NCBI RefSeq assembly: GCF_002968295.1
Contig: NZ_CP134399.1
Coordinates: 4,340,001-4,404,000, forward strand
DNA from: Mycobacterium sp. ITM-2016-00317
GTDB lineage: Bacteria > Actinomycetota > Actinomycetes > Mycobacteriales > Mycobacteriaceae
Direction: 5' to 3'
Length of the DNA: 64,000 bases
The position numbers and the translations under genes are program-made. Positions within the stretch are counted from its first letter, which is position 1. Each line of letters starts with the position of its first letter. Of this stretch, positions 15,361 through 54,179 are shown one piece after another. Below the pieces are notes generated by a model, which did not search any database, had not been told where the DNA came from, and worked only from the letters and a program-made list of their open reading frames with translations.

Positions 15361-15861
15361 ATGCCGGTGCGACGTGTGCGCAGTGCGCTTGCGTCCGCGA
15401 CCTTGGTCGCGGCCGCGTGCGTGGGCGCCGAGGGCACCGCGCTGGCGGCGACGCCCGACTGGAGCGGCCGCTACACCGTGGTGACCTTCGCGTCGGACAA
15501 ACTCGGCACGAGTGTCGCCGCCCGCCAGCCCGAACCCGACTTCAGCGGCCAGTACACCTTCAGCACGTCCTGCGTGGGCACCTGCGTGGCCACCGCGTCC
15601 GACGGCCCGGCGCCGTCGAACCCGACGATTCCGCAGCCTGCGCGCTACACCTGGGACGGCAGGCAGTGGGTGTTCAACTACAACTGGCAGTGGGAGTGCT
15701 TCCGCGGCGCCGACGTCCCGCGCGAGTACGCCGCGGCCCGTTCGCTGGTGTTCTACGCCCCGACCGCCGACGGGTCGATGTTCGGCACCTGGCGCACCGA
15801 GATCCTCGAAGGCCTCTGCAAGGGCACCGTGATCATGCCGGTAGCCGCGTACCCGGCGTAG
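15361..15861 (+). CDS. Secreted protein of unknown function with disulfide-type cysteines
   Basis: A 166-residue protein. Residues 1-29 form a Sec signal peptide (Arg-rich start, hydrophobic core, AxA-type end before ATPDWSG). The mature part has aromatic-rich strands (WSGRYTVVTF, DFSGQYTFSTSC, WVFNYNWQWECF) and four cysteines that could form two disulfides. I do not recognise a named family; similar small secreted proteins are common in mycobacteria. It ends 11 bases from the convergent glycosyltransferase gene. The 147 bases upstream hold no gene. Confidence 0.65.
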   Translation: MPVRRVRSALASATLVAAACVGAEGTALAATPDWSGRYTVVTFASDKLGTSVAARQPEPDFSGQYTFSTSCVGTCVATASDGPAPSNPTIPQPARYTWDGRQWVFNYNWQWECFRGADVPREYAAARSLVFYAPTADGSMFGTWRTEILEGLCKGTVIMPVAAYPA

Positions 15862-15872
15862 CCGCCGCCGGT

Positions 15873-17492
15873 TCACGCCGTGCGGTCCTGCCCGACCTGC
15901 TCCTCTGCGGAGATCGGCACGGCGACGACGTCCGGGTGCTCCGCGGCGCGGGCGGCCGGTTCGCCGACGCCCGGGGAGACGCTGCGCAGACTGCCGACCG
16001 CCTGATCCAGCGTGTGCAGGTCGTGGCCGTGTTCGGTCTTGTCCCAGAAATGCCGCATCCGTGGGTTGGCCAACTCGTAGCACGCCTTGACCAGGGACAG
16101 CACGGCCAGCATCGGCCAGATCCCGGCGAGCACCACCACCATGTACTTCACCGTGGAATAGCCCTCGTGCTTGGTGGCGATCGCGACGTGCTGCAGGAAG
16201 AGCACGAGGTTGCCGAACACCAGCAGCAGCACGCCGAGGTAGAGCAGCAGACTGGGAAACAGGGCCTCGATCACGGGCGACCGCGTCGCGAAGTACAGGT
16301 AGGTCAACGCCCACGAGAACGCGGCCAGTCCGATCGACAGCGGCGTACCGATCAGGAACAGCACGTACACCATCCAGCGCACGAAGCCCATGTGCTGCAT
16401 CGTGCGAATGGGATTGCGGGTGAAGATCAGTCCGGTCTGGATGTATCCCTTGAGCCACCGCGACTTCTGCCCGATCAGAGTCGAGACCTTGGTGGTGGCG
16501 ATCTCCTGGGTGACGCTGTCGAGCATCGCGATCTTGAATCCGTGCAGTGCCAGCGCGCCGGCCAGATCGGCATCCTCGGTGACGTTGAACATGTCCCAGA
16601 TGCCGACCCATTCGACACCGGGCGGCAGATCGGCCTCTTCGATGCTGACCCGGGTGAGCATCTCGAGGCGGAAGTGGTTCGACGTCCCGCCCAGCGGCGG
16701 GATGAGGCCCAGCTTCGCCATCCCGGGCAACACCCAGGTGAAGTGAATCAGGTACTCCGCCCACATGAGTCGCGACACCCAGGTGCTGGTCTGGTTGGAG
16801 AACGCCAGCTGCGCCTGCAGACACACCACCGTCGAGTCGACGCGGTCGTAGCCGCGGAACATCCCGACCGCCTTGCGCAGCTGATCGGGTTCAGGCCGGT
16901 CCTCGGCGTCGTAGACGACGCACAGCCGTGCCGCCCGGTCCCGCCTGGACATCGCGCGCGACTCCTCCAGTGCAACGTGCGCACCGTAATTGAGCGCCCG
17001 CTGCTTGCCGTAGGGCTTGACGTCGGGCACCTCGACGATGTCCACGAACGACGGAACGTCGACCGCGTCGATGGCGGCCCGCGTGCTCGGGTCGCGATCG
17101 CGCGACTCGACCAGCAGCTTCACCCGCAGCCGGTCCTTCGGGTATTCCAGGCCGGCCATGCCGCTCATCATCGGAGCGATCATGTCGGGTTCGCGGAACA
17201 TCGGCACCAGCACCAGGTAGTGGGGCAGCGTGGGGTCGTCGACGGACGGAATGTCGTAGTCCAGATACGTGTGCCGGGTGGACGCATGCCACAGGCCCAT
17301 CTTCATCAACCCGACGAACACTGCGAAGAACGACAGCACCACGGCGACCGTCACCTGGGCGACGATCAGCGGAACAGTCACCAGCCCCACGATCAGCAGC
17401 ACGGCCGACAGGGCGAACAGCGTGACCTGCCCGGTGTTGACGACGGTTGCCGCGGTATGCCGAACAGGCTCGCGCCGAGAGGTTTTCGCCAT
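15873..17492 (-). CDS. Processive-type family 2 glycosyltransferase (membrane polysaccharide synthase)
   Basis: A 539-residue membrane enzyme. Two hydrophobic segments lie at residues 20-70. The catalytic domain follows with LVLVPMFREP, VYDAEDRPEPDQL (near 195-207), TEDADLA (near 305) and QKSRWLKGY (near 345), the Q-x-x-RW motif of processive synthases such as cellulose and hyaluronan synthases. Four or more membrane helices cover 365-480. This layout suggests that it polymerises a sugar nucleotide and extrudes the chain. It is the last gene of a four-gene operon, starting 3 bases after the GT-C gene stops. Sugar and linkage are unknown. Confidence 0.82.
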   Translation of the reverse strand: MAKTSRREPVRHTAATVVNTGQVTLFALSAVLLIVGLVTVPLIVAQVTVAVVLSFFAVFVGLMKMGLWHASTRHTYLDYDIPSVDDPTLPHYLVLVPMFREPDMIAPMMSGMAGLEYPKDRLRVKLLVESRDRDPSTRAAIDAVDVPSFVDIVEVPDVKPYGKQRALNYGAHVALEESRAMSRRDRAARLCVVYDAEDRPEPDQLRKAVGMFRGYDRVDSTVVCLQAQLAFSNQTSTWVSRLMWAEYLIHFTWVLPGMAKLGLIPPLGGTSNHFRLEMLTRVSIEEADLPPGVEWVGIWDMFNVTEDADLAGALALHGFKIAMLDSVTQEIATTKVSTLIGQKSRWLKGYIQTGLIFTRNPIRTMQHMGFVRWMVYVLFLIGTPLSIGLAAFSWALTYLYFATRSPVIEALFPSLLLYLGVLLLVFGNLVLFLQHVAIATKHEGYSTVKYMVVVLAGIWPMLAVLSLVKACYELANPRMRHFWDKTEHGHDLHTLDQAVGSLRSVSPGVGEPAARAAEHPDVVAVPISAEEQVGQDRTA

Positions 17493-17495
17493 GTC

Positions 17496-19070
17496 TCAAT
17501 CCTTGAACTGGTAGACGATGTAGAGGTCGTTGCGGAACACCTCGCGGTAGGCGGTCAGCTTGTGAGACGCCTGCAGCTCGGTGAACGTCTGGTCGGCGCC
17601 GTTGCCCGATCGGGTGACGATCCACCGGATCTGCTGGCCCGGCGGATTGCTCAGCGCCGGGTCCCACTTCTGATAGCTGCCTTCGTAGACGTTGTTGTTC
17701 AACGGGATCCGCGCCTTGAACAGGATCGACTCGTTGCCGAACGACTCGATCAGGATCACGCCGCCGTCGTAGTGCTCGGCCAGGAAAGCGCTCGTGGTGT
17801 CTGCTGTCTCGGGGAAGCCGACGCTGCCCTCGGTCGCGGTGACCACGCCTGCCGGACCGTGCGACTCGGCCGGGATCAACGTCCACGCCGCGGCGACCAT
17901 CGCGCCCGCGACCCAGCACCGCGCCGGCAGCACGCTGACGAGATAACCGACCAGGATCGCCGCGGGAACCACCAGCATCAATCCGAACCGCACGTTGTAG
18001 AGGTCGTGGTTGATCTGCATCACGTGCAGCGGACGCTGCCCCACGGTCAGCGCGAACACGAAGAACGGCGCGATCACCAACAATCCGAGCACCGGCAGTG
18101 AGTCCAGTTGGCGGCGTGCGAGGAGACAGCCCGCCCCGACGATCATCGCGAGCGTCACCGCGATCCCGAGATTCTCGACCACGGCGTACCAGTACGTCTG
18201 CGCGGCGACCCAGGGGTGGCCCACCGAGGGCTCCCCCTCCCCCACCCATAGCGAGGGTTTGGCGTACTGCCCGTTCTGAAAGTTCAGCGCGTTCCCGAAG
18301 ATGAGCTGGTTCCAGCCCATCCACAGCACGATGGCCGCCCCCGCGACGAAGCCGAAGGCCAGGGACATGCCCGCGACGGCGTGCCTGCCGTACTGCCGCC
18401 ACGTGACCACCGCCACCACCGCGCCCATCGTCAGCGTCAGCGGCCACGCCTCATAGCGGGTCAGACACGCGATGAACGCGGCCACGGCCGCGGCGAACAG
18501 GTACCGGTACTTGCGTTCATGGTCGGTGACCTGGATCCAGCGCTGGATGTAGTAGGCCATCGCGACGATCGCGGCGAACAACAGCAGCTCGGTCATCGGC
18601 GTGGACTGCATGTAGAGCACGTTGGGGTTCAGAGCGAACACCGCGGTCGCGGCCAGCGCCGCCGGCCTGGAGCGGGTGAGGTCGAGCGCCATCTTGTAGA
18701 CGTAGACGCACGCGACGACATAGGCGATCATGCTCACCGCGCTGCCGGCGAACCCGCTGTAGTAGAACGGGGTGAACCACACCAGCGGCAGCATCAGGAC
18801 GTGCGGCAACGGAAGCCACACACCGCCGAGCTGCGCGAAGCCGGCCGTCGGGCTGTTCAGCGTCCTGGCCGCTATCTGGAGGTGGGAGATGGAGTCCTTG
18901 TACCCGAGCGCCATGCCTTTGCTGACGAAGTAGGCGTACGCGGTGATCGACAGCACCGTCGCGGCCGCCGCCACCCACCGCACCGTACGGTCGCTACGCT
19001 CGACCGGCGCGCGGTGTTGCGGCTCAACGCTTTTCGGTGCCGGGGTGGACGTCCCCGCCAGGGTGGTCAC
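17496..19070 (-). CDS. GT-C fold membrane glycosyltransferase (ArnT/GT39-like)
   Basis: A 524-residue protein with ten or more hydrophobic segments. The first extracytoplasmic loop has YKDSISHLQIAARTL, with Asp placed like the catalytic acidic residue of GT-C enzymes that use polyprenyl-phosphate sugars. SRPAALAATAVFALNPNVLYMQSTPMTE follows, typical of ArnT/dolichyl-phosphate mannose transferases. The C-terminal 100 residues are soluble and probably outside. GTG 19070 overlaps the stop of the GtrA-GT2 gene (GTGA), which indicates translational coupling. It probably transfers the sugar that the GtrA-GT2 protein loads onto polyprenyl phosphate. Confidence 0.75.
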   Translation of the reverse strand: MTTLAGTSTPAPKSVEPQHRAPVERSDRTVRWVAAAATVLSITAYAYFVSKGMALGYKDSISHLQIAARTLNSPTAGFAQLGGVWLPLPHVLMLPLVWFTPFYYSGFAGSAVSMIAYVVACVYVYKMALDLTRSRPAALAATAVFALNPNVLYMQSTPMTELLLFAAIVAMAYYIQRWIQVTDHERKYRYLFAAAVAAFIACLTRYEAWPLTLTMGAVVAVVTWRQYGRHAVAGMSLAFGFVAGAAIVLWMGWNQLIFGNALNFQNGQYAKPSLWVGEGEPSVGHPWVAAQTYWYAVVENLGIAVTLAMIVGAGCLLARRQLDSLPVLGLLVIAPFFVFALTVGQRPLHVMQINHDLYNVRFGLMLVVPAAILVGYLVSVLPARCWVAGAMVAAAWTLIPAESHGPAGVVTATEGSVGFPETADTTSAFLAEHYDGGVILIESFGNESILFKARIPLNNNVYEGSYQKWDPALSNPPGQQIRWIVTRSGNGADQTFTELQASHKLTAYREVFRNDLYIVYQFKD

Positions 19071-20317
19071 ACCGCCTCCTGACCGGCGACGGGCAGGTAG
19101 GCCTGCAGCGCGCTGGGCACCGGTGCGACCGCGCGCACGGCGAGTTCGCGACGCACGAGATAGAGATCGCGGAACGACCGCAGCACGACCTTGGGCTGCA
19201 GGCCCGACTGGGTTCCGTGGGCACGGGGGTAGTGCGGGACGGGCACTTCGACACACCGGGTGCCTGCGCGGTGCAGCCGGGCCAGCAGTTCCGGTGAGAT
19301 CGCCGCGTAGTCGCTGCGCAGTTCGGGCACGACCGCCTCGATGGCGCTCCGGTGCAGCAGTTTGAAGCCGCAGTCGACGTCGGTGGCGTCGTATTTGAGC
19401 ACCATCCTGCTGATCAGGTGCCAGCCGCGCCCGGCGATGCGCCGTACCACGTTGTCGGCGCGCTTGAGCCGCACCCCGAGCACCACATCGACGTGGTGGG
19501 TGTACGCGGTCACCATCAGCAGCGCCATGTCACCGGGGTTGAACTGGCCGTCGGAGTCACAGAACGCCACCCACTCGCAGCCCGTCGCGAGCGCGGCCGC
19601 GAAGCCCGACCGCAGGGCCCGGCCGTAGCCCTGGTTGCCGTCGTGCGTGACGACCGAAACCGCCTGGCTGGCGGCGAACTCGGCCAGCACGGCAGCGGTG
19701 CCGTCGGACGAACCGTCGTCGACCACGATGACGGCCCGCTCGGAGATGCCGGCCTCGTCGAAGAACCGGTGCGCCCGAGCGATGACGTCTCCGAGGTTGG
19801 CGGCCTCGTTGTAGGCGGGCATGAACAGCGCCACACTCGGCGAGTGCGACGTATCGACGGGCAGCGTTCTCATGATGGCCTTCTCCGGTGTGGTGAGTGA
19901 CTTCGGTTGGGTGGGCTGGGCTTTGAACACGATCAGGTGGTTGACGAGGAAGGTCCACACTGAGCTGGCGACGTTGGCCGCGAGCATGGCCGCCCAGTAC
20001 GGCAGACCGAGGTGGACCAACAGGTAGAACACGCTGGCGTTGACCAGGAACACCGACACGAGCGCGTTGGCGTTGAACTTCAGCCACCGCAGCCGCACCA
20101 ACTCCTCGTGACGGCGGTCGCCCCAGGTGAACAGCAGGCTCAGCACGAAGTTCACCTGAGCCGAAGCAAGGAACGCGACCACGTCGGCGTAGTACAGGTG
20201 CATGAACCCGTCGAGCAGGTGCAGCAGTCCTAGCTGCACCACGAAGCACCCGCCACCGACGATGCCGAAGCGGCAGATGCGGGTGATGGGGCGTAGAGAC
20301 ACGGCGTCACCGGTCAT
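19067..20317 (-). CDS. GtrA-GT2 fusion: polyprenyl-phosphate sugar synthase and flippase-like protein
   Basis: A 416-residue two-domain protein. Residues 8-135 are a GtrA-like domain with four membrane helices (FGIVGGGCFVVQLGLLHLL ... VWTFLVNHLIVF). Residues 155-390 are a DPM1/GtrB-like family 2 glycosyltransferase: FMPAYNEAANL, IVVDDGSSDGT, GYGRALRSGF, CDSDGQF. The usual order in GtrB-type proteins is catalytic domain first, so GtrA at the N-terminus is notable. The likely job is to make a polyprenyl-phosphate sugar and help move it across the membrane for the GT-C enzyme. ATG 20317, 38 bases after the giant secreted protein stops. Confidence 0.78.
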   Translation of the reverse strand: MTGDAVSLRPITRICRFGIVGGGCFVVQLGLLHLLDGFMHLYYADVVAFLASAQVNFVLSLLFTWGDRRHEELVRLRWLKFNANALVSVFLVNASVFYLLVHLGLPYWAAMLAANVASSVWTFLVNHLIVFKAQPTQPKSLTTPEKAIMRTLPVDTSHSPSVALFMPAYNEAANLGDVIARAHRFFDEAGISERAVIVVDDGSSDGTAAVLAEFAASQAVSVVTHDGNQGYGRALRSGFAAALATGCEWVAFCDSDGQFNPGDMALLMVTAYTHHVDVVLGVRLKRADNVVRRIAGRGWHLISRMVLKYDATDVDCGFKLLHRSAIEAVVPELRSDYAAISPELLARLHRAGTRCVEVPVPHYPRAHGTQSGLQPKVVLRSFRDLYLVRRELAVRAVAPVPSALQAYLPVAGQEAV

Positions 20318-20355
20318 CGTGGGCAACCTTGCGTCGGGGCTGTGGGGGCCGTGGG

Positions 20356-23300
20356 CTATACCGCGACGGCGGCGGGAGCGGTGACGTCGGCGCCGGTGAC
20401 GACGACGTGGTCGAACACCGAGGTGTTCACCTGGGATCCGTTGTGTGACGTGACGAACAGCCCTATCTCGACGTCGGCGCCGAGATCCAGGGTGACCGTG
20501 CCCAGCCGGGTCCACGTGACGCCGTCGGCCGAGGTGTAGCCGGTGAGCTGAGTTCCGCTGCGGCTCAGACGGACCCATCCTTCACCCGGGGTGTGCGGCG
20601 CCGATCCGACGTCGACGGCGAATCCGTGTTGCATCGTCACACCGTTGGCCGGGGTGACTGCGACCAGCACGTAGGGCGCTCCGGCGGCCGCCGACTGCTT
20701 GATCATCACGCCGCTCTTGGCCCAATCGTCGGTCCCGGATTCCTGGGCTGCGACCCGAGCGACGATGTCGCCGTCGCCGGTCAGGCTCTGGTGCACGAAG
20801 TGGAACTGGTCCGCTTCACCCCAGATGTCGTCGCCGGCACCGTTGACGGTGAACGTGCCACCGGCGTAGGTCGCCGATCCGGCCAGCCGTGGCGCCCCGA
20901 CGTCCTCGGTCACCCAGGGTGCGGGCGGCACCGACGACGTCGCGCTCTTGTCCACCGAGACCTGGTCGAATGTCGCAGTCGCGAGCGCGGAGCCGTCGTG
21001 GGCGCTCACGAACATCCCGATGATCGCATCATCGCCGAGTGGCACTGTGGCCGAACCGACCTCGGTCCACAGCAGGCCGTCGACGGACACCAGCCCGGTG
21101 ACCGTGTTGCCGGCACGGACCAGCTTGAGCCAGTCGCCCGTCGTGGCCGCCGCGGAGTTCGCATTGAACCCGTGCTGGAAGTTGACACCGTTGGCCGGTG
21201 TCACGGCGAGCAGCGCGTACGGGGCACCGGCCGCGGCCGATTGTTTGACGATCACGCCCGCCTTGGCCCACCCGTCGGTGACACCGGTGAACGACGCGAC
21301 GTGGGCCACGATCACGCCGTCCCCCGGCAGGCTCTGGTACGCCAGGTGCATCTGGTCCGCGCCGCCCCAGATGTCGTCACCGCTGCCGGTCAAGGTGTAC
21401 GTGCCGCCGGAGTGGGTGGTACTGCCGGTCAGGCGGGTCCCGCCGACGTCGGTGCTCCTCCACTGCTTGCCGGACACGATGCTGACGTTGTCGAACCGCG
21501 TCGTGTTGAGCGTGTCGTACTTGTGTGAGGTCACCGCCAGACCGCCGGTCACCCCGCCCGCCATGGCCAGCGTGGTCTCCCCCACCAACGTCCAGGCCAG
21601 GCCGTCCGAGGAGGTGTAGCCGCGGAACACATCGCCTTGGCGCTCGAGTTTCAACCACGCGTTCGGGAGCGTGTACGCCGCCGAGCCGCCGTCACCGTCG
21701 AAGTCGTACTGGAAGGTCACCCCGTTCTCCGGGGTGACGGCGAGCAGGACGTACTTGCTGCCCGCGGTCGCCGACTCCTTGATGATGATCCCGGACTTCG
21801 CCCAGTCGTCGGTGTCGGTCTGCGACGTCACCCGCGCGATGATGGTCCCGTCGCCGTCGAACGGCTGGTACACGTAGTGCATTTCGTCGGTCGGACCCCA
21901 GATGTCGCCTCCCGCACCGCGGATGGTGAACACGCCGCCGCCGTAGGACGAGTAACCGGTCAGCGTCGGGTGCCCGATGTCGGTCTCACGCCACGGCGTC
22001 GGCGGGGTGCTGAACTTGTCGTAGTTGACGGTGTAGGTACCGCCGGTCAGCGGTGTGACGATGATGTGGGTGGCCGCTTCGCCGTTCGACCAGCTGTTGA
22101 ACACCAGCTGACCGTCGGGCAGGTATTGGGGCGACACCGCACCCACCACGCGTTCGACGCCCACGACACCCATTTCGGTGAACGTGCCCCGGTGCGGTAT
22201 GCCGTCGATCGTGTACACCGCGTTCGGATCGCTGGCGGTGAACGTCATCGGCGCCAGGCGGGGTTTGATCTCCACGGTTTCGGTGGTGGAGAGTCCGCTG
22301 CTGTCGGTGACCGTGAGGGTGATGCGGTAGAAGGTGGTGTCGACGTTGTCGGAGCTTCGCGGCAGCACCACCATCCCGCTGGGTCCGATGATGTTGTCCC
22401 GGAAGGGATGCACGTGGTCCGCGTGACCGAACTGGATCGTCCACTTGTAGGCGGCGTCGGGAAGCACGCCGTCCTCGGCATCGGCGCCGACACCGGTGAA
22501 CGAGAGGACGTCGCCGGCGCTGTACTGCGAGTTCTGCACGGGGCTGGTGATCGTCGCGGTCGGCGCGGTGCTGCCCACCACGATGCGTTGGGTCGCCCTG
22601 CCGGTTTTCTCACCGTCGCTGACGGTCAACGTGACGAGGTAGGAGCCGTTGGTGCTGAACACCCTCGTCGGATTGGCCTCGGCAGAGGTGGTTCCGTCAC
22701 CGAAGTCCCACGCGTAGGTCAGCGTGGTGCCCGGATCCGGATCGGTCGATCCGGCCGACGAGAAATCGATGGCCAGCGGCGGCAACCCGTTGTCCCTGCC
22801 GGCGGTGATGACCGCCGACGGTGCCCGGTTGCCGCCGGACGGCACGATCCGGGACAGCGTGCCGGGGAAGATGTTCAGCTGGTAGATGTTCCCGTCGGGG
22901 CCCTGCGCGAGCTTGACCGCGGTGCCGGCGTCGTCGTCGAAGATCTCCTCGGAGATGAAGCTGGTGAACTGGGAGTCGAACGTCAGGGTCTTGATCCATC
23001 CGAGCGTGTAGTCGGCGATGAAGACCTTGTTGAGGTACTCGTCGCCGAGTTTGTCGCCGGTGTAGACCATCACCGAGGTGATCGAGCCTGCCTTCGCCGG
23101 CGCAGGGGTGTGCGCGTAGGTGTAGATCGGATTGACGTATCCGCAGTTGGTGCAGACGCCTTCGGCAGACGGCCAGCCGTAGTTGGCGCCCCCGGTGACG
23201 ATGTTGAGTTCCTCCCAGGCGTCGCCGCCGACGTCGCCGGAGAGCAGCTGTCCGTCGGGGGTGAACGTGAACCGGAACGGGTTTCGCAGTCCGTACGCCC

Positions 23301-24861
23301 AGATCTGCGGGATCGCTCCGGGAGTGTCGAGGAACGGGTTGTCGGCGGACGCGGTGCCGTCCGGATTGAGTCGCAGGATCTTGCCGTGGACGTTGGACAG
23401 GTTCTGCGAGTTGGGGTTGTAGGTGTTCATCCCCATGGCCCAGTACAACTTGCCGTCCGGACCGAAATGCACCTCGCCGCCGTGGTGATAGATGTTTCCG
23501 GGTTGGTCGGATTCCATCAGCACGACTTCGGACGCCGGGTCGGCGGTGTGTCCGGTGACGGTGAGCCGGGAGAGCCGGTCGAAGTTCTGGGCGGTGGTGT
23601 ACGAGACGTAGAGGTAGCCGTTGTCGTCGAAATCGGGATCGAGTTCGATGCCGAGCAGACCCCGCTCCTCGTCGGTGTCCGTGGGCAGCGTGACGAGCGT
23701 GATCACCGGTTCGGCGTGCACGTGTCCGTCGTGAAACAGCTTGATGGCGCCGCCCTTCTCGGCGACCAGGATGTCCCCGTTGGGCAGGAAGCGGAAGTCC
23801 GTGGGTTGCACCAGACCGTCGATGAGCACCTGGCGCTCGAGGTGCTCGGGCAGCCCGTGCCGTACGGCGTCCGGATCGTCGATCGGGTCGTGAACCCCGG
23901 GGATGTCCGCGCGCCCCGCCACGGGCGGGCCGGCTACCACCTCTGCGACGGGAGGCCGCGGACGTTGGGCGACATAGGGTTCGAGTTGCCTTCTGACCCA
24001 GGCCAAGACGGTCCACAGCAACGGCGTGTTCGTCTGCGTGATGGGCCCGTTGTCATCGAGCAGCGGCGCCAGCACGGAGTCGAGCACGGTCGCGACCATC
24101 GTGATCAACGGGTGCACTCGGGCGGCTTTCGGCGGCTGAGGCGGCACAGCGGACGAGCCGGCGATCGCACTCGTTCCTGTCGCCGACGTCGCGGGCCGGG
24201 CCGTGAACGCGGCAGGCAATGAGGCTGCGGCGCTCGCTTCGTCATCGATAACCGTTGCCGTGCTGAGCATTTCGTCACGCCCACCGGCTACCTGCCCGCT
24301 CCCGTCGCCGCGGCCGAGCTGGAGACCGGCGCCGGCCGATCGAGGATCCGGCTGCGCATCCTGATGGCCCGAGCCCGAAGGTACCGGCGGTGTGGCGGAT
24401 TCGGGGATGACGACGTCTCCCACCGGCGCGGGCCCTTCGGTCTCCACCCCCGCTGGGCCGGGTTCTTCCGGAGTGTCGAGTGGATCCCCCTCTGCCTCAA
24501 CGGCATCGGGCGGACTCTCCGCCACCGGGGGTTCCTCGTCGGCTGGATCTCCCGAGCCGTCCGGATTACCCGAGCCGTCCGGCACATCCGCTGCCGACCC
24601 GTCGTCGTCCGTCTCGGTCGCATCGTTGCCACCCGATGGCGTCGCCCCCGGATCTGTCCCGGTACCCCCGCCTGCAGTAGCCGCCGAACCCGACACAGAG
24701 CCGGATTCCGCACTCGCAGAGGATGTTTCGGTCTCGTCGGCCCACGCAAGGCCGGACCCGAACATTCCACCGACGCCGAGCGCCACGGCCAGTGCCCCGA
24801 TGTGTCCCACGTGCTGCGCGGTCCCGCGACGGACGCGGTTTCGCGAGTGGCATGGACTCAT
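20356..24861 (-). CDS. Giant secreted protein: sugar-dehydrogenase beta-propeller, PKD domain and three carbohydrate-binding-like repeats
   Basis: A 1501-residue exported protein. A signal peptide spans about residues 1-40 (ALAVALGVGGMFGSGLAWA). Residues 40-190 are a Ser/Asp/Glu/Pro-rich linker. Residues 345-670 form a PQQ-type glucose/sorbosone-dehydrogenase-like propeller (GDILVAEKGG, ERGLLGIELDPDF, HHGGEVHFGPDGKLYW, WAYGLRNPFRFTF). Residues 680-765 are a PKD domain (YAWDFGDGTTS). Three modules of about 177 residues follow at 957-1133, 1134-1311 and 1312-1495, each with DDIWG/GDIWG, GDG-I-A-V, WAK-G-I-K-S and LLAVTP-NGV, like DUF1349/concanavalin-type domains. ATG 24861 is chosen because AGGGGG lies 5 bases upstream; ATG 24879 lacks this. 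First gene of the glycan operon. Confidence 0.8.
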   Translation of the reverse strand: MSPCHSRNRVRRGTAQHVGHIGALAVALGVGGMFGSGLAWADETETSSASAESGSVSGSAATAGGGTGTDPGATPSGGNDATETDDDGSAADVPDGSGNPDGSGDPADEEPPVAESPPDAVEAEGDPLDTPEEPGPAGVETEGPAPVGDVVIPESATPPVPSGSGHQDAQPDPRSAGAGLQLGRGDGSGQVAGGRDEMLSTATVIDDEASAAASLPAAFTARPATSATGTSAIAGSSAVPPQPPKAARVHPLITMVATVLDSVLAPLLDDNGPITQTNTPLLWTVLAWVRRQLEPYVAQRPRPPVAEVVAGPPVAGRADIPGVHDPIDDPDAVRHGLPEHLERQVLIDGLVQPTDFRFLPNGDILVAEKGGAIKLFHDGHVHAEPVITLVTLPTDTDEERGLLGIELDPDFDDNGYLYVSYTTAQNFDRLSRLTVTGHTADPASEVVLMESDQPGNIYHHGGEVHFGPDGKLYWAMGMNTYNPNSQNLSNVHGKILRLNPDGTASADNPFLDTPGAIPQIWAYGLRNPFRFTFTPDGQLLSGDVGGDAWEELNIVTGGANYGWPSAEGVCTNCGYVNPIYTYAHTPAPAKAGSITSVMVYTGDKLGDEYLNKVFIADYTLGWIKTLTFDSQFTSFISEEIFDDDAGTAVKLAQGPDGNIYQLNIFPGTLSRIVPSGGNRAPSAVITAGRDNGLPPLAIDFSSAGSTDPDPGTTLTYAWDFGDGTTSAEANPTRVFSTNGSYLVTLTVSDGEKTGRATQRIVVGSTAPTATITSPVQNSQYSAGDVLSFTGVGADAEDGVLPDAAYKWTIQFGHADHVHPFRDNIIGPSGMVVLPRSSDNVDTTFYRITLTVTDSSGLSTTETVEIKPRLAPMTFTASDPNAVYTIDGIPHRGTFTEMGVVGVERVVGAVSPQYLPDGQLVFNSWSNGEAATHIIVTPLTGGTYTVNYDKFSTPPTPWRETDIGHPTLTGYSSYGGGVFTIRGAGGDIWGPTDEMHYVYQPFDGDGTIIARVTSQTDTDDWAKSGIIIKESATAGSKYVLLAVTPENGVTFQYDFDGDGGSAAYTLPNAWLKLERQGDVFRGYTSSDGLAWTLVGETTLAMAGGVTGGLAVTSHKYDTLNTTRFDNVSIVSGKQWRSTDVGGTRLTGSTTHSGGTYTLTGSGDDIWGGADQMHLAYQSLPGDGVIVAHVASFTGVTDGWAKAGVIVKQSAAAGAPYALLAVTPANGVNFQHGFNANSAAATTGDWLKLVRAGNTVTGLVSVDGLLWTEVGSATVPLGDDAIIGMFVSAHDGSALATATFDQVSVDKSATSSVPPAPWVTEDVGAPRLAGSATYAGGTFTVNGAGDDIWGEADQFHFVHQSLTGDGDIVARVAAQESGTDDWAKSGVMIKQSAAAGAPYVLVAVTPANGVTMQHGFAVDVGSAPHTPGEGWVRLSRSGTQLTGYTSADGVTWTRLGTVTLDLGADVEIGLFVTSHNGSQVNTSVFDHVVVTGADVTAPAAVAV

Positions 24862-25279
24862 GAATCCCCCTGGAGCCAACAGCGACCCCCGTCGGCTGCG
24901 CTCTGCAGGAACTATGGCATGGAAGTTATAGCAAATCTATCGCCTGCGACAGTTCCAAACATGCACCGTTGCGTGCGCATGTATATCGCGGGGATCAGCG
25001 AACTCAGACGTCCGACGGTGCCATAGGTGACATTCAGAGATACAACCAAGTCAACGGGCTGACATTCAAGTGCCACTGTGACATTCGGCTATGGCGCGTT
25101 TACCAGCCGCTAACACAATCCCGAGATCAGCCGGAGCGTCGGTCACGCAATCATGAGACCTAGGATGCGGCTCCAGCAACGCCGAGTTGTTTCGGTGCTG
25201 TTACCGGTGCCTCGACATCGGCTCTGTACCAGGGATTGTAAGGGCCCCGTCGACGAAGTCGGCGGCAGCTCAACGCTCC
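24862..25279 (-). promoter_or_regulatory. Promoter region of the glycan operon with three TGACATTC repeats
   Basis: This 418-base gap has no credible gene and is clearly AT-richer than its flanks around 24900-25130. TGACATTC occurs three times in the same orientation: 25028-25035, 25060-25067 and 25079-25086, the first two extended to TGACATTCA. Spacings are 32 and 19 bases. They lie 167-225 bases before the start of the giant secreted protein. Repeats of this kind often bind a regulator, but no candidate protein is evident nearby. Confidence 0.4.
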
Positions 25280-26236
25280 TCAGTCCACCAGTGCGCGCAG
25301 GAAGAACCCGAGATTCGCGGGACGCTCGGCCAACCTGCGCACCAGGTAGCCGTACCACTGGGTGCCGAACGGCACGTAGACGCGGACGTGGCTGCCCTGC
25401 CCGGCCAGCCGCCGCTGCTCGGCGTCGCGGATGCCGTAGAGCATCTGGTATTCGAAAGCATCGGCCCCACGGCGGTATTCGCGTGCCAACGCGGGCACAG
25501 CGTCGACGATCTCGGGGTCGTGTGAGGCCACCATCGGGTAGCCGTTGCCCGCCATCAGGATCCGCAGACACTGCAGGTACGAGTCGGTGACCTCGTCACG
25601 GTCCCGGAAGGCGACCGAGGCCGGCTCGTCATAGGCGCCCTTGCACAAGCGGATTCGCGCACCGCCGGCCGCTGCGAACTCCGCGCAGTCCGCCCGCGAG
25701 CGTCTCAGGTAGGCCTGCAGCACGGTGCCCACCCAGTCGTAGTCCACCCGCAGGTCACGCACGATGGACAACGTCGAATCGGTGGTGGTGTGGTCCTCGG
25801 CGTCGACGGTCACCCACACGCCGGCGGCCAGCGCCCGTTCGCAGATCGCGCGTGCGTTCTCCAGCGCGATCTTCTCGCCGTCCCGGGGCAAGGCCTGCCC
25901 CAGCGCCGAAAGCTTCAGCGACACCTCGGTCGGCGCCACGTCCGCAGCGGTCTCACCGCGGACCGCGAGTGCGTCGATCAGCGCGTGGTACGCGGTGACG
26001 GTCGCCGCGGCCGCGTCGGCGTCGGTGACGTCTTCACCGAGGTGGTCGATGGACACCATGCGGTGTGAATCGCGCAGCTGGGTGACCGACGTCATCGCGT
26101 CGTCGATGGTCTCCCCCGGCACGAAGCGACGAACCACCTCCCGCGTCACCGGGATCCGCTCGGCGGCGCGGCGCAGTCCGTCACGTCGGGCCGCCGCCAG
26201 GATCACCGGACGCGCGACCGTGCCGAAGACGCCCAC
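25280..26236 (-). CDS. pruB: Proline dehydrogenase
   Basis: A 318-residue FAD enzyme that oxidises L-proline to 1-pyrroline-5-carboxylate and passes electrons to the respiratory chain. Family motifs: VSLKLSALGQALPRD (near 110), VTVDAEDHTTTD (near 150), VGTVLQAYLRRSRAD (near 180), RLCKGAYDEP (near 210), EYQMLYGIRDAEQRRL (near 270) and YVPFGTQWYGYLVRRLAERP near the end. Start GTG 26236 lies 2 bases after the pruA stop, so both are one transcript. Homologue of Rv1188. Confidence 0.93.
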   Translation of the reverse strand: MGVFGTVARPVILAAARRDGLRRAAERIPVTREVVRRFVPGETIDDAMTSVTQLRDSHRMVSIDHLGEDVTDADAAAATVTAYHALIDALAVRGETAADVAPTEVSLKLSALGQALPRDGEKIALENARAICERALAAGVWVTVDAEDHTTTDSTLSIVRDLRVDYDWVGTVLQAYLRRSRADCAEFAAAGGARIRLCKGAYDEPASVAFRDRDEVTDSYLQCLRILMAGNGYPMVASHDPEIVDAVPALAREYRRGADAFEYQMLYGIRDAEQRRLAGQGSHVRVYVPFGTQWYGYLVRRLAERPANLGFFLRALVD

Positions 26237-43694: not shown

Positions 43695-44426
43695 TCACCA
43701 GCCGCGCCGGTGCGGCGCCGAACCGAGCAGTTCACCTCTTCCGGCCTCGTCACGGCTGCGGTAGACGATGTAGGGGCGGAACAGATAACCGACCGGGGCG
43801 CTGAACGCGTGCACCAGCCGGGTGAACGGCCACAGGCAGAACAGGATCAGGCCGAGCGTCGCGTGGATCTGGAACCACAGCGGAGCCGCCACCATCAGGT
43901 CCCCGCGCGGCTGGAGCACCCAGATCGACCGGAACCACGGTGAGACGGTCTGGCGGTAGTCGTGCTCGGCGCCGACGGGTGTGGCGCCGATCAGCGTGCA
44001 GGCCAGGCCCGCGACGATGGCCAGCACCAGCACCACGTACATGAGCTTGTCGTTGCGGGTGGTCGCCATGAACACCGGACCGCTGGTGCGCCGCCGGTAG
44101 ATCAGCAGCATGACACCCACCAGCGTGCACAGCCCCGCGATGGCGCCCAGCACCAACGCCTGGATGTGATAGGCGTCGTTGCTCAAACCGACAGCGTCCG
44201 TCCAGGATTCGGGGATGACGAGGCCGATGATGTGCCCGACGATGACCACCAGGATGCCGAAGTGGAACATCGGGCTGGCGATGCGCAGCAGCCGGCTCTC
44301 GTAGAGCTGCGACGACCGGGTGGTCCAGCCGAACTTGTCGTAGCGGTAGCGCCACCACGTGCCGAGGACGACGACGGCCAGGGTCACGTACGGCACGACG
44401 TCCCAGAAGATCTCCCCACCGGTCAT
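43695..44426 (-). CDS. narI: Respiratory nitrate reductase gamma subunit NarI
   Basis: A 243-residue cytochrome b with five membrane helices (DVVPYVTLAVVVLGTWWRYRYDKFGW first) and the haem-ligand His-rich helices FHFGILVVIVGHIIG and HATLGLILFCLWPFTRLVHAFSAP. In an intact enzyme it takes electrons from quinol and passes them to NarH. ATG 44426, directly after narJ. Because narG is mostly missing, this subunit has no catalytic partner encoded here. Confidence 0.93.
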   Translation of the reverse strand: MTGGEIFWDVVPYVTLAVVVLGTWWRYRYDKFGWTTRSSQLYESRLLRIASPMFHFGILVVIVGHIIGLVIPESWTDAVGLSNDAYHIQALVLGAIAGLCTLVGVMLLIYRRRTSGPVFMATTRNDKLMYVVLVLAIVAGLACTLIGATPVGAEHDYRQTVSPWFRSIWVLQPRGDLMVAAPLWFQIHATLGLILFCLWPFTRLVHAFSAPVGYLFRPYIVYRSRDEAGRGELLGSAPHRRGW

Positions 44427-44427
44427 G

Positions 44428-45078
44428 TCAGCGGACCCCTTCCGGATCGCCGTCCGAACGCCGCGGCGGGACGGTCAGCGTGAAAGGCTGCAGCCCGACG
44501 GCTTCGGCGGGGGGCCCCTCGGCGGCCAGCCGACGGGCCCGGCGCAGATCACCGTCGGTGGCCGCGCGCAGCGTCGACAGCACCGCCCGCACCGCGGGCG
44601 CGTACGGGGACTCGGCCTCGGAGAGCGCCTGCAGCAGCACCTCCAGGGCGACCCGGTGCTCCCCGAGCAACCGCCGTCCGGCATCGGGGTCGACGGTCGC
44701 GGCGAACTCGAGGACCACGGGCAGGTGGTCGGGCGCTTCACCCTCGGGCATCAGCACCCCGGCCCGCCGGTAGGCATCGGCGAACTCCAGCATCGCCCGG
44801 CCGCGGTTGCGGGTGTCCCCCGCCGTCCAGTACGTCAGGTACATGGTGGCCCGGCGCCGCATGTCGAAGGTCGCGACGTACTGCTGGGCGGAAGCCATCG
44901 GGTCGATGCCGCGCAACGCCTGCAGCGCGACCGAGAGTTCCTCGGCTGCAGCGCCTTCGGCGTGCCGCAGCAGCTCCGCGGCGGTGTCGAGCTGCCCCGG
45001 GCGCGGATAGCTCAGCAGCAGGGACGCACACTGCCATGCCAGCCGGTCCGCCAGTGGGGAACGCTTGCGCAGCCTCAT
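44428..45078 (-). CDS. narJ: Nitrate reductase assembly chaperone NarJ
   Basis: A 216-residue TorD/NarJ-type chaperone that assists cofactor loading of NarG. Helical throughout, with LLLSYPRPGQLDTAAELL and the family motif YVATFDMRRRATMYLTYWTAGDTRNRG (near 70-95), then YRRAGVLMPEGEAPDHLPVVLEFAA. ATG 45078 overlaps the narH stop by ATGA. Its client is truncated in this genome. Confidence 0.92.
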   Translation of the reverse strand: MRLRKRSPLADRLAWQCASLLLSYPRPGQLDTAAELLRHAEGAAAEELSVALQALRGIDPMASAQQYVATFDMRRRATMYLTYWTAGDTRNRGRAMLEFADAYRRAGVLMPEGEAPDHLPVVLEFAATVDPDAGRRLLGEHRVALEVLLQALSEAESPYAPAVRAVLSTLRAATDGDLRRARRLAAEGPPAEAVGLQPFTLTVPPRRSDGDPEGVR

Positions 45079-46730
45079 CCCCGGTCTCCGTTCTGCGGGA
45101 ACATCCCCGGCGGCGCGCCGCGGCCGTCCCAGTTGAGCAGGTTCACCCGCGAGGGGCGGGTGTCGTTGGCGCCCATGTGCTCACCGGTCTGGCGGTGCTG
45201 CAGCGCGTGGAACGTCTCCACCGCCACGGGCACCGGCACCCCGCTGGCCTCGCCGAACGGCCCGGACTCGAACATGCCGGGCCCACCCTCGAACGACAGT
45301 GAGCAGCCCGGTTCCTCCACCCCGGGCAGCCCGTCGGTGGCGTACGCGGTCGGAATGACGTAGCGCTCTTCATATTTGGCCAGGGCCAGCAGCCGGTACA
45401 TGTCGTACATCTGTTCCTCGCTCATGCCCACCGACTCCGGGATCTCCGGTTGCGTCACCCGGCCCAGGTTGATGTCACGCATGTAGGACCTCATCGCGGC
45501 CAGCCTGCGCAGCACACCCTCGACCACCGCGGTGTCGCCGGCGGTGAACAGGCCCGCCAGGTACTCGATCGGGATGCGCAGCGCCTCCAGCGCGCCGAAC
45601 AGGTTGCCCAGTTCCTCGCCGTCGTGACCGCTGCGGCTGACCGCGTCCACGACCGGTGACAGCGGCGGGATGTACCAGACCATCGGCACGGTGCGGTATT
45701 CCGGATGCAGCGGCAGCGCCACCTGATAGCGCTGGATCAGCGCGTAGATGGGCGAACGCTGGGCGGCCTCGATCCATTCGTCGGAGATCCCCTCGGCACG
45801 GGCGGCGGCGATCACCTCGGGGTCCTCGGGGTCGAGCAGGATCGACCGGTGCGCAGCGTACAGATCGGTGTCCTCGGGCACCGAGGCCGCCTCCAGCACC
45901 CGGTCCACGTCGTAGAGCACCAGACCCAGGTAGCGCAATCTGCCGACGCAGGTCTCCGAGCACACCGTCGGCAGGCCCACCTCGATGCGCGGATAGCACA
46001 GCGTGCACTTCTCGGCCTTGCCGGTCTTGTGGTTGAAATACACCTTCTTGTAAGGACATCCGGACACGCACATCCGCCATCCGCGGCAGCGGTCCTGGTC
46101 GACGAGCACGATGCCGTCCTCGCTGCGTTTGTACATCGCGCCCGACGGGCAGGACGCGACGCACGATGGGTTCAGGCAGTGCTCACAGATCCGCGGCAGG
46201 TAGAACATGAACGTCTGCTCGAGTTCCAGCCGGACCTGTTCGCTGACCTGCCGCAGCACCGGATCGCCGGGCACGATCTCCGGCGACCCACCGAGGTCGT
46301 CGTCCCAGTTCGCCGACCACTCGACCTTCATCGACTCGCCGGTGATCAGGCTGCGCGGCGGCGCCACCGGCATGTGTTCGCCCAGCGGAGCATTCGTGAG
46401 GTTCTCGTAGTCGTAGGTCCACGGCTCGTAGTAGTCGTCGATCGACGGCAACTTCGGATTCGAGAAGATGTGCAGCAGTTTGTCGAAGCGTCCGCCGCCG
46501 CGCAGCCGCAGCCGGCCCCGCCGGTCCCGGACCCAGCCGCCGCGCCAGCGGTCCTGATCCTCGTAGGTGCGCGGGTACCCCTGGCCCGGCCGGGTCTCGA
46601 CGTTGTTGAACCACACGTACTCAGTGCCGGGCCGGTTGGTCCACGCCTGTTTGCACGTCACCGAACAGGTGTGGCACCCGATGCACTTGTCCAGGTTCAT
46701 CACCATCGCCATCTGCGCCATCGGTTTCAC
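45075..46730 (-). CDS. narH: Respiratory nitrate reductase beta subunit NarH
   Basis: A 551-residue iron-sulfur protein. Cluster motifs: CIGCHTCSVTC (near residue 16), CEHCLNPSCVASCP (near 185), CRGWRMCVSGCP (near 216) and CTLCYPRIEVGLPTVCSETC (near 245). CRGW has Trp where a fourth ligand would be, as in NarH, giving one [3Fe-4S]. GTG 46730 (MKPMAQMAMVMNLDK) overlaps the end of the narG remnant as GTGA. The protein looks intact. Confidence 0.94.
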   Translation of the reverse strand: MKPMAQMAMVMNLDKCIGCHTCSVTCKQAWTNRPGTEYVWFNNVETRPGQGYPRTYEDQDRWRGGWVRDRRGRLRLRGGGRFDKLLHIFSNPKLPSIDDYYEPWTYDYENLTNAPLGEHMPVAPPRSLITGESMKVEWSANWDDDLGGSPEIVPGDPVLRQVSEQVRLELEQTFMFYLPRICEHCLNPSCVASCPSGAMYKRSEDGIVLVDQDRCRGWRMCVSGCPYKKVYFNHKTGKAEKCTLCYPRIEVGLPTVCSETCVGRLRYLGLVLYDVDRVLEAASVPEDTDLYAAHRSILLDPEDPEVIAAARAEGISDEWIEAAQRSPIYALIQRYQVALPLHPEYRTVPMVWYIPPLSPVVDAVSRSGHDGEELGNLFGALEALRIPIEYLAGLFTAGDTAVVEGVLRRLAAMRSYMRDINLGRVTQPEIPESVGMSEEQMYDMYRLLALAKYEERYVIPTAYATDGLPGVEEPGCSLSFEGGPGMFESGPFGEASGVPVPVAVETFHALQHRQTGEHMGANDTRPSRVNLLNWDGRGAPPGMFPQNGDRG

Positions 46731-47005
46731 TGGTAGACCACCTCCTGCGAGCGGCGACGCACGACGGTGACCTCGTCGCGCTGATTTCCTGTGGGCCCCA
46801 GGTAGTTGAACGCGAACGCGGTCTGGGCGTAACCGCCTGCGAGGTGGCTCGGCTTGACCAGCAGCCGGGTCAACGAGTTGTGGATGCCGCCGCGGCGTCC
46901 CGTGGTCTCGGTCAGCGGCACGTCGATCACCCGCTCCTGCGCGTGGTAGACGAACACCACCCCTTCGGGCATCCGGTGGCTGACGATCGCCCGGCACACT
47001 ACGCC
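46727..47005 (-). pseudogene. narG: narG remnant: last ~92 codons of the nitrate reductase alpha subunit
   Basis: From GVVCRAIVSHRMPEG to the stop, the frame matches the C-terminus of NarG, including VYHAQERVIDVP, RGGIHNSLTRLLVKPSHLAGGYAQ and FNYLGPTGNQRDEVTVVRR. Full NarG is about 1,230 residues, so over 90% including the whole molybdopterin-binding region is gone. The frame upstream of about 47005 continues without any NarG likeness. The gene order narG-H-J-I is otherwise standard, and the GTGA overlap with narH is kept. Confidence 0.85.
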
Positions 47006-47410
47006 GGCGACATGTCCCTGAGCAGCAGTGCACCCGTCTCCGGCAGTGTCGCCGTGCTCACCGCCTGAGCAAATCAAACTCGCCGGGTCCGCGCGGCGTT
47101 TCCCGTTGATCGAAACAATCGGCGGCACAGGACTTTCGGTACGCAAAGACCAGGTCACGTCACCGGGTGAGCTGCACCGCCACCCAAGCGCCGAAACCGC
47201 AGTTACATGGCCGGATCCTGGTATGTCGCGGGGTTGCGCGCCGACACGGCGGACGCCACTGTCCGGTGCCGGGCTCGTTACGCAGCCACGCCCGGCGCCG
47301 CGCAGCCAGCGCAGCGCGCGGCGTCGCGCGCTTGAGGCACCGAGTACTGGAGTCCTGTGCGAACATGCCAAGTAGCGCGGCGGTGTCGTCGGCGGATTGG
47401 AGTGTGCTCA
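47006..47410. other. Non-coding stretch between the narG remnant and the hydrolase gene
   Basis: About 400 bases with no supportable gene. This is the deletion scar region: no other NarG segment is recognisable in any frame. The right part presumably carries the promoter of the hydrolase at 47411, and GC-repeat-rich DNA (GCGC runs) fills 47280-47330. Confidence 0.5.
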
Positions 47411-52844: not shown

Positions 52845-54179
52845 CGGAATAGCATTCCTGGTCGTGATTCGCCCGGCGGATTCATACGGTCATTGCAACA
52901 TCGGGCGGTTTGAGGAGTTGCTGAGTGACCAGTGGTCGGCGGTTCGGGTGTGAGGTTCGGCGCGAGTTTTACGACCGGGTGTGTGCTGGTGCGCCGGTCA
53001 AGCACGCGGCTGTGGAGTTGGGCGTGTCTTTCCAGGCCGGCTACCTGTGGTGGCGCAAGGCTGGCGCGATGCGACTGCTCAATGGCAACGGTGGATCAGG
53101 TTTGGCTGAACCGGGTGATCTGACCCGGGTCGGTGGACCGGGGCGGCGGCTCAGTTTCGACGAACGTGTGGTGATCATGCGGGGTCTCGACGCGGGGTTG
53201 GGCTACGCCGCGATCGGGGCGAAGCTGGGCCGAGATCGCTCGGTCATCTGGCGCGAAGTGTCTCGCAACCGCACCGACGACGGGGACTACCACGCCCACG
53301 TGGCCCACGCCCGGGCCGCGCGGGCTGCGCGCCGGCCCAAGTCGTTCAAGCTGTCTGACCCGAACCTGTGCGCGGCGGTCGAAGCGTGGATGGACGACGG
53401 GTGGAGCCCCAAGCTGATCGCTGAGGTGTTGGCCCGTGATCACCCCGATGACAAGCTGGCACGGGTGAGCCACGAGACGATTTACCGCAGCCTGTATGTA
53501 CAAGCTCGTGGCCAGTTGCGCGCTGATCTGCATCGATGCTTGTCCACTCGACGAGCGGCGCGTAAGCCGCGCGGGCATGCCCAACGGCGCGGCACCTTCG
53601 ATGACGTGCTGCGTATCAGTCAGCGACCCGCCGAAGCCGCCGATCGCGCCGTACCCGGGCACTGGGAGGGCGACCTGATCGTCGGCGCCCGCGGCACCAG
53701 CGCGATCGGCACCCTGGTCGAACGCAGCACTCGATTCACCATCTTGTTGCACCTACCCATCGACCACACCTCCGAAGCGGTCGCCACGGCGATGCTCGAG
53801 GCAATGGCCGAACTCCCCGATCACCTGCGCCGCTCGATCACCTGGGACCGCGGCAGCGAAATGGCCCGCTGGCAGGACATCTCGCTGCAGCTCCAAGCCC
53901 CGGTGTACTTCTGCGATCCCCACTCGCCCTGGCAGCGCGGCAGCAACGAGAACACCAACCGGCTGCTACGCCACTGGTTTGAAAAGGGCAGCAATCTGAA
54001 CGGCTACACCAAAGCCGACCTGCAAGCCGTCGCCGACAAACTCAATACCCGACCACGCCCCACCCTTGACCTCGACACCCCCGCCCAGCGCATGGCCGCC
54101 CTGATTAACCAAGCGGCCTAAGCGTTGCCATAACCACTTGACTTTGAGCCCCGCGATCACGACCAGGAATGCTATTCCG
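52845..54179 (+). mobile_element. Complete IS30-family insertion sequence
   Basis: A 1,335-base element. Its ends are 24-bp perfect inverted repeats (52845-52868 and 54156-54179) starting CGGAATAGCATTCC, and the outer part is itself palindromic (GGAAT-AGC-ATTCC). One full transposase gene fills the interior. I could not find a convincing target-site duplication: flanks read GCGC on the left and CGGT on the right. It sits in the gap between the Rv1157c-like and DUF1059 genes and breaks neither. Confidence 0.85.
52925..54121 (+). CDS. IS30-family transposase
   Basis: A 398-residue DDE transposase. The N-terminal helix-turn-helix (LSFDERVVIMRGLDAGLGYAAIGAKLGRDRSVIWREV, near 75-112) binds the ends. 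The catalytic core has GHWEGDLIVG (first Asp), TWDRGSEM (second Asp) and FCDPHSPWQRGSNENTNRLLRHW (Glu). No stop or frameshift is seen, so the element may still move. Confidence 0.93.
   Translation: MTSGRRFGCEVRREFYDRVCAGAPVKHAAVELGVSFQAGYLWWRKAGAMRLLNGNGGSGLAEPGDLTRVGGPGRRLSFDERVVIMRGLDAGLGYAAIGAKLGRDRSVIWREVSRNRTDDGDYHAHVAHARAARAARRPKSFKLSDPNLCAAVEAWMDDGWSPKLIAEVLARDHPDDKLARVSHETIYRSLYVQARGQLRADLHRCLSTRRAARKPRGHAQRRGTFDDVLRISQRPAEAADRAVPGHWEGDLIVGARGTSAIGTLVERSTRFTILLHLPIDHTSEAVATAMLEAMAELPDHLRRSITWDRGSEMARWQDISLQLQAPVYFCDPHSPWQRGSNENTNRLLRHWFEKGSNLNGYTKADLQAVADKLNTRPRPTLDLDTPAQRMAALINQAA

Follow-up and report, generated by a model that had tools for sequence, protein, structure and literature searches.

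We analysed a stretch of 64,000 nucleotides from Mycobacterium sp. ITM-2016-00317 (contig NZ_CP134399.1, positions 4,340,001 to 4,404,000), hereafter the window, and focused on a cassette of four minus-strand genes that recurs, reshuffled, across actinobacteria and may serve to make a surface polysaccharide. In the order of transcription, and in window positions, the cassette comprises gene 1 (P0001, 20356..24861, 1501 amino acids from an ATG start), which encodes a giant exported multidomain protein; gene 2 (P0002, 19067..20317, 416 amino acids), a GtrA-type membrane domain fused ahead of a GT2 glycosyltransferase domain; gene 3 (P0003, 17496..19070, 524 amino acids from a GTG start), a GT-C-like multi-spanning glycosyltransferase, called from a sub-threshold PMT_2 match and hydropathy; and gene 4 (P0004, 15873..17492, 539 amino acids), a processive-type GT2 synthase carrying PF13641. 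The junctions measure 38, -4 and 3 bases, with the stop of gene 2 and the start of gene 3 overlapping in GTGA, and a TTG stands in frame 18 bases upstream of the gene 1 ATG. These open reading frames, their coordinates, spacing and order had been given in a first-pass annotation of the window and were all reproduced from the list of open reading frames. A consensus scan of the cassette returned no promoter-like site (0.7 expected) and three terminator-like sites (3.7 expected), one within gene 3 and none at the intergenic junctions.

The gene 1 protein, whose parts are all encoded on the minus strand, starts with a leader (residues 1-41, 24739..24861) whose hydropathy peak, at residues 21-39, was the sole hydrophobic stretch of the protein in a hydropathy scan, and whose likely cleavage site, AWA-DE, was judged by eye. 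A long Ser/Thr/Pro-rich stretch, also recognized by eye, separates this leader from a GSDH propeller (PF07995, residues 352-662, 22876..23808, E 5.7e-54, 184.1 bits). This part can be aligned with solved GSDH proteins, soluble quinoprotein glucose dehydrogenase among them (PDB relatives 2ism, 3das, 3a9g, 2g8s and 1c9u). A PKD domain follows (PF18911, residues 678-760, 22582..22830, E 7e-20), and then three DUF1349-like repeats (about residues 957-1130, 1134-1313 and 1315-1490; 20392..21993; PF07081, 50 bits for a cut-off of 32.4), which share 49, 51 and 56% mutual identity and are also reflected in the DNA repeats D1 and D2.

The gene 2 protein combines a GtrA_DPMS_TM domain (PF04138, residues 16-131, 73.2 bits, cut-off 26.1) with a Glycos_transf_2 domain (PF00535, residues 165-328, 88.9 bits), the latter resembling polyprenyl-phosphate-sugar synthases and matching the dolichol-phosphate mannose synthase 5mlz (E 8e-15). 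The GtrA/DPMS membrane domain precedes the GT2 domain, unlike in the fused dolichol-phosphate mannose synthases, which begin with their catalytic domain. In gene 3, a simple scan revealed several hydrophobic stretches. Among eight proteins of the gene-3 subfamily (L numbers designate loci and G numbers genomes, G000 being that of the window), PMT_2 passed its cut-off in four (L053, 32.4 bits; L078, 30.4; L076, 28.8; L077, 28.7), which strengthens the GT-C call, and stayed under it in the other four (L055, 25.9; L054, 23.6; the window, 22.5; L079, 20.1). Among the protein calls of the first-pass annotation, the exported giant, the GtrA-GT2 protein and the processive GT2 were borne out, whereas the GT-C label was weak on the window's own gene 3. 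Gene 4 encodes a Glyco_tranf_2_3 domain (PF13641, E 1.5e-15), and its sequence shows the motifs DAED, TED and QKSRW, the last at about 16455-16469; DAED, TED and QxSRW are present in P0004 and in both orthologues of alignment A1. DxD, TED and QxxRW are motifs of processive GT2 synthases. The protein lies far under the cut-offs of named synthases (CelA, 36.1 against 699.1; PgaC, 28 against 422.3), and Pfam matched neither a BcsB nor a PilZ domain in any protein of the cassette. By its domain and motifs, gene 4 is a cellulose-synthase-like GT2 of processive type.

The four families recur together elsewhere. Relatives of gene 3 with at least 42% identity were retrieved outside the window from a survey of 298 genomes at the level of the order (G215, G295, G463 and G464) and of 394 genomes at the level of the class (G652, G659, G691 and G720). 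At this threshold we counted 13 loci from six families, namely the window, L014 (G168), L035 (M. rhodesiae JS60), L036 (the metagenome-assembled genome RYN_129, on the same contig as G112/L015), L037 (Mycobacterium sp. OAS707), L052-L055 and L076-L079. A synthase and a GT2 partner lie nearby in 13/13 loci and GtrA in 12/13 (none was found in L078); a gene-4 relative is present in all eight loci from the order- and class-level surveys. The giant directly adjoins the cassette in 8 of the 12 judgeable loci, or 9 if L052, where it stands one large open reading frame off, is included. L076 was counted with the giant, of which only the start is visible before the contig ends, and L077 could not be judged, its contig ending there, with a 65% GSDH-PKD match near the start of another contig. 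The window, L014, L035 and L037 share one gene order (giant, GtrA, GT2, GT-C, synthase), and their neighbours differ, as far as the gene calls go. The giant is the first gene in these four, which are those of the five mycobacterial loci that have it; outside mycobacteria, it is the last in L052, L053, L055, L076 and L079. Gene-3 relatives at 29-33% identity (G280, G540, G625, G726, G794 and a second copy in G168) were kept out of the count, and their loci (L050, L080-L084) gave no gene-1 match. The second cassette of G168 (L050:6729-11867) encodes a GtrA-GT2 relative (61%), a synthase (35%) and a GT-C-like protein (30%), with no giant nearby and a 63% GSDH-PKD match about 60 kb off.

The partition of the glycosyltransferase domains into genes varies among these loci. 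A single frame encodes both GtrA and GT2 in the window, L035 and L036, whereas L014 and L037 have a frame for each; the GtrA-GT2 fusion of the first-pass annotation therefore holds for some of the cassettes, while elsewhere the GT2 is joined to GT-C. Seven loci (L052, L053, L055, L076, L077, L078 and L079) have GT2 and GT-C within one open frame. Pfam confirmed both domains in all of these except L052, PMT_2 being under its cut-off in L055 (just) and L079. GtrA has its own frame in L053, L055, L076, L077 and L079, all three are separate in L054, and L052:10374-13349 (G215) holds GtrA, GT2 and GT-C together in a 992-codon frame, apparently as a triple fusion. These shifting fusions support the joint action of GtrA, GT2 and GT-C, as far as gene structure can indicate it. 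In G215, the large open reading frame between the synthase and the giant encodes a PQQ_2/BamB-like propeller and DUF1349 according to Pfam. The DUF1349-like repeats may accordingly serve several heads as a common module for anchoring or binding. Several large frames with many DUF1349-like repeats, one of them with a PQQ_2/BamB-like propeller, adjoin glycosyltransferases in L052 and L091 of this genome.

The glycosyltransferases might instead act on protein. In such a scheme, GtrA, GT2 and GT-C would glycosylate the giant itself or other exported proteins in a PMT-like manner, and gene 1 would be their substrate and not a partner that handles a polymer. PMT_2 is the only curated family whose cut-off is passed by gene-3 relatives, the window's giant has its Ser/Thr/Pro-rich stretch, and in L036 a mannose-1-phosphate guanylyltransferase follows the synthase (621 bits, cut-off 440). 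However, the giants of L053, L055 and L079 start almost at the propeller (their starts are approximate) and do not have the Ser/Thr/Pro-rich stretch, yet the cluster is kept; three loci carry the transferases with no giant; the guanylyltransferase of L036 may be a housekeeping gene; and the scheme gives no role to the synthase. We consider it improbable.

A second group of loci provides a contrast. In the genus survey (198 genomes, drawn evenly from a larger group), any relative of gene 4 was found in 76 genomes and any relative of gene 3 in 42, and a sister cassette was examined in 18 loci, namely the own copy of the window's genome (L013:4710-11319) and 17 taken from the upper part of the list (L016-L032). 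All 18 contain a gene-4 relative, a gene-3 relative and an exported protein of 521-651 amino acids, 17 a membrane protein of about 500 amino acids, and 14 a ribosomal L16 gene nearby; in none was gene 1 or gene 2 matched at E<=1e-3. Likewise, no gene-1 match at E<=1e-3 was obtained in 16 loci of other synthase relatives (L050, L051 and L056-L069). The exported partner was considered as a BcsB, for which Pfam gave weak matches in 5/18 proteins (best E 0.0012) and the PDB no match better than E 0.19; only the wording "weakly BcsB-like" was retained. Widespread in mycobacteria, the sister cassette may represent a separate synthase-dependent polysaccharide system. In a tree of 52 synthases, made by a quick method, the 13 cassette synthases form one branch (SH-aLRT 97) separate from the sister cassette. 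We rejected a chance placement of the giant, because it recurs beside this GT-C subfamily and is absent from the sister loci. As judged from gene neighbourhoods, the four families are one conserved unit and their coupling is old. Their co-occurrence elsewhere, on which the first-pass annotation had staked its proposal, is thus seen across several actinobacterial families; its mycobacterial framing needs widening, since the cassette is present in mycobacteria but not confined to them, and further families of the order and class carry it with a changed gene order. The cassette adjoins secY, adk, map and ribosomal protein genes, read by eye, in L053 and L055 (G295 and G464). That both cassettes lie near ribosomal genes, the sister one in mycobacteria, may be a coincidence or reflect a common insertion hotspot.

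Within the genus, the cassette is rare and accessory. Relatives of gene 4 with at least 66% identity were found in 3/198 genomes, G000 (the window), G168 and G112, and relatives of gene 3 with at least 62% identity in the same three. The search for gene 1, which used the C-terminal part of P0001, found this module in two (G000 and G168), each with close GT-C and synthase relatives. A pattern scan of named genomes returned four loci, in M. rhodesiae JS60, Mycobacterium sp. OAS707, RYN_129 and Albibacillus kandeliae, the last with a distant synthase (34%) and none of the other three genes. The adjacent proline dehydrogenase was matched in 64 of 78 genus genomes searched, the window's included; about 12 kb was read at the site in 20 of the other 63, and none of the four genes (E<=1e-10) was present in any of the 20. 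The flanking genes abut within about 20 bases in the closest matches, L096 and L097, where the window holds about 9.4 kb. The accessory status proposed in the first-pass annotation is thereby upheld. The site is variable, because several other relatives have a longer interval or gave no match for one or both of the further flanking genes. The cassette has a guanine-plus-cytosine (GC) content of 0.670, for 0.714 and 0.694 in its flanks, and third-position GC values of 0.86, 0.892, 0.92 and 0.90 in genes 1 to 4, for a median of 0.904 in 35 other genes. No repeats of at least 16 bases, as mobile-element ends, were found inside either edge (15800-15960 and 24862-25330). The cassette was probably gained at this site, between genes that abut in near relatives.

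The extra segment relative to near relatives includes the 418 bases upstream of gene 1 (24862..25279), of low GC content (0.577), where the gene 1 promoter presumably lies. The motif GAATGTCA occurs there three times, spaced 19 and 32 bases. It was dropped as a signal because no upstream copies exist in the cassettes L014, L035 and L037, and because chance repeats of this kind arise in a first-order Markov control, where 34 of 3000 sequences had some 8-mer occurring three times.

A variable site also invites the explanation that the giant is secreted to act on, or adhere to, sugars of the environment, and is clustered with the glycosyltransferases only through a shared surface-adaptation island. 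In line with this, GSDH/PKD matches are common in some genomes (29 in G720), and the leader is common to other large exported frames of G000: it recurs at 9 other places with E<=0.001 and at 11 with E<=0.01, the frames at the stricter threshold having 642 to 3051 codons. We nevertheless find this explanation unlikely, given that the giant stands near the GT-C subfamily in 9/12 judgeable loci from five families, with the order reversed, and in 0/18 sister loci. The leader-bearing frames of G000 (607-3051 codons in all) include a second GSDH protein near G000:C1:850000.

The activity of the propeller needs separate consideration. In the active-site comparison of the giants, in which the His and Arg-Asn positions were checked among the PQQ (pyrroloquinoline quinone) contacts, the residue counted as His144 by the numbering of soluble glucose dehydrogenase and the next Arg-Asn pair were invariant in 8/8 aligned giants; we assume the former to be catalytic and the latter to contact PQQ. 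A search that covered PqqE only (TIGR02109) gave no protein over the cut-off in the eight giant-bearing genomes searched. Over all 11 genomes searched, it passed in one, G463, which is without the giant, and it passed in none of 14 control genomes. The giant may oxidise the product, as the first-pass annotation tentatively put forward; the kept active-site positions speak for this and the PqqE result against it. The same data bear on the possibility that the propeller is catalytically dead and structural, like hedgehog-interacting protein, which also matches the GSDH domain, and that the giant, in the manner of BcsB, guides the synthase from the extracytoplasmic side. The PqqE results are in favour of it, as is the sister cassette, which has in that place an exported protein that is weakly BcsB-like in 5/18 loci. 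On the other side, all eight giants keep the His144-equivalent and the Arg-Asn pair unchanged, and PQQ can be imported from outside. We hold a dead propeller to be possible but doubtful.

Taken together, we lean slightly towards the view that the four genes are one functional unit that makes a surface polysaccharide. Gene 4 would polymerise and extrude a glycan from nucleotide sugar, while gene 2 would load a second sugar onto polyprenyl-phosphate and then flip it, and gene 3 would move the flipped sugar onto the chain outside the cell. The C-terminal repeats of gene 1 would grip the emerging chain, and its propeller might either help synthesis and deposition, or oxidise chain ends or side sugars. 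Several observations weigh against this polysaccharide unit. Three of the 12 loci (L036, L054 and L078) carry the glycosyltransferases without the giant, which is therefore not indispensable, and a genome-wide search of G463, G659 and G112 gave no GSDH match of more than 40% identity spanning most of the domain (G463 holds shorter ones, up to 49% identity). The GT2 of L078 seems frame-shifted, with its first part in another frame, and that of L054 is only 28% identical. The PMT_2 match of gene 3 (22.5 bits) is below the Pfam cut-off of 26.1, and its model (A3, 4 rows), with a mean predicted local distance difference test score (pLDDT) of 40.2, gives no fold support for GT-C; the model of gene 1 residues 339-1490 (A4, 3 rows; mean pLDDT 38.9) gives none for carbohydrate-binding repeats. 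Moreover, long branches were flagged in the quickly made synthase tree. If the polysaccharide unit is real, environmental mycobacteria and other actinobacteria would have an undescribed surface polysaccharide, and secreted GSDH/PKD/DUF1349 proteins, sugar dehydrogenases by domain name, would be tied to glycan synthesis. Being genetically compact, the unit would also allow polymerisation, decoration and the handling of the chain to be told apart by deleting single genes.

Away from the cassette, NarI, NarJ and NarH were recognized by eye at 43695-47033, preceded by no more than a short open frame in the place expected of a full NarG, and an open frame at 53168-54121 has a start that resembles an IS30-type transposase by eye.

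Our literature search, which most subscription journals lay beyond, found no paper on this gene composition, and the cassette was compared with four known systems, the published descriptions of three of them being available to us in part. As in BcsA-BcsB, a processive GT2 would work with an extracytoplasmic partner, but the window proteins have neither BcsB nor PilZ, and gene 4 scores 36.1 against 699.1 for CelA. The gsf cluster of Actinoplanes missouriensis, which encodes GtrA and several GT2 proteins, is involved in exopolysaccharide formation and needed for normal sporangia (PMC13390465). It resembles the cassette as an actinobacterial cluster with GtrA and GT2 proteins, but has eleven genes and a membrane transferase said not to be GT-C, and the text of the article contains neither "sorbosone" nor "PKD" (PMC13390465). 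The three-component systems of Gram-positive bacteria consist of a GT-A lipid-sugar synthase, a GtrA flippase and a GT-C transferase, acting in that order (PMC8035078). The window set likewise has a GT2/GT-A-type synthase and GtrA, with GT-C by a sub-threshold match; as far as the accessible text goes, those systems decorate teichoic acids and cell-wall polysaccharides, whereas the window set has its own processive-type synthase, a secreted propeller and several domain fusions. In Streptomyces, CslA and GlxA, a synthase and a secreted propeller-shaped oxidase, are encoded in one operon, and their complex makes cellulose in vitro (PMC11022532). The likeness, drawn from the part of that description at hand, is that of a cellulose-synthase-like GT2 sharing an operon with a cooperating secreted propeller oxidoreductase; P0004 is likened to CslA by description. 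In contrast, GlxA is a membrane-anchored copper radical oxidase, while the window partner is of GSDH type with PKD and DUF1349-like repeats, no GlxA-type copper radical oxidase domain being among the Pfam hits of P0001, and the window unit also includes the GtrA, GT2 and GT-C genes. Among the systems compared, as they are described in the portions available, the predicted combination of synthase-dependent glycan machinery and three-component decoration is unmatched in composition. By analogy, and tentatively, the cassette might be a parallel actinobacterial design similar to CslA-GlxA but independently evolved, in which a quinoprotein-type propeller would bind and oxidise the nascent glycan and a three-component route would add a second sugar to an undescribed polysaccharide.

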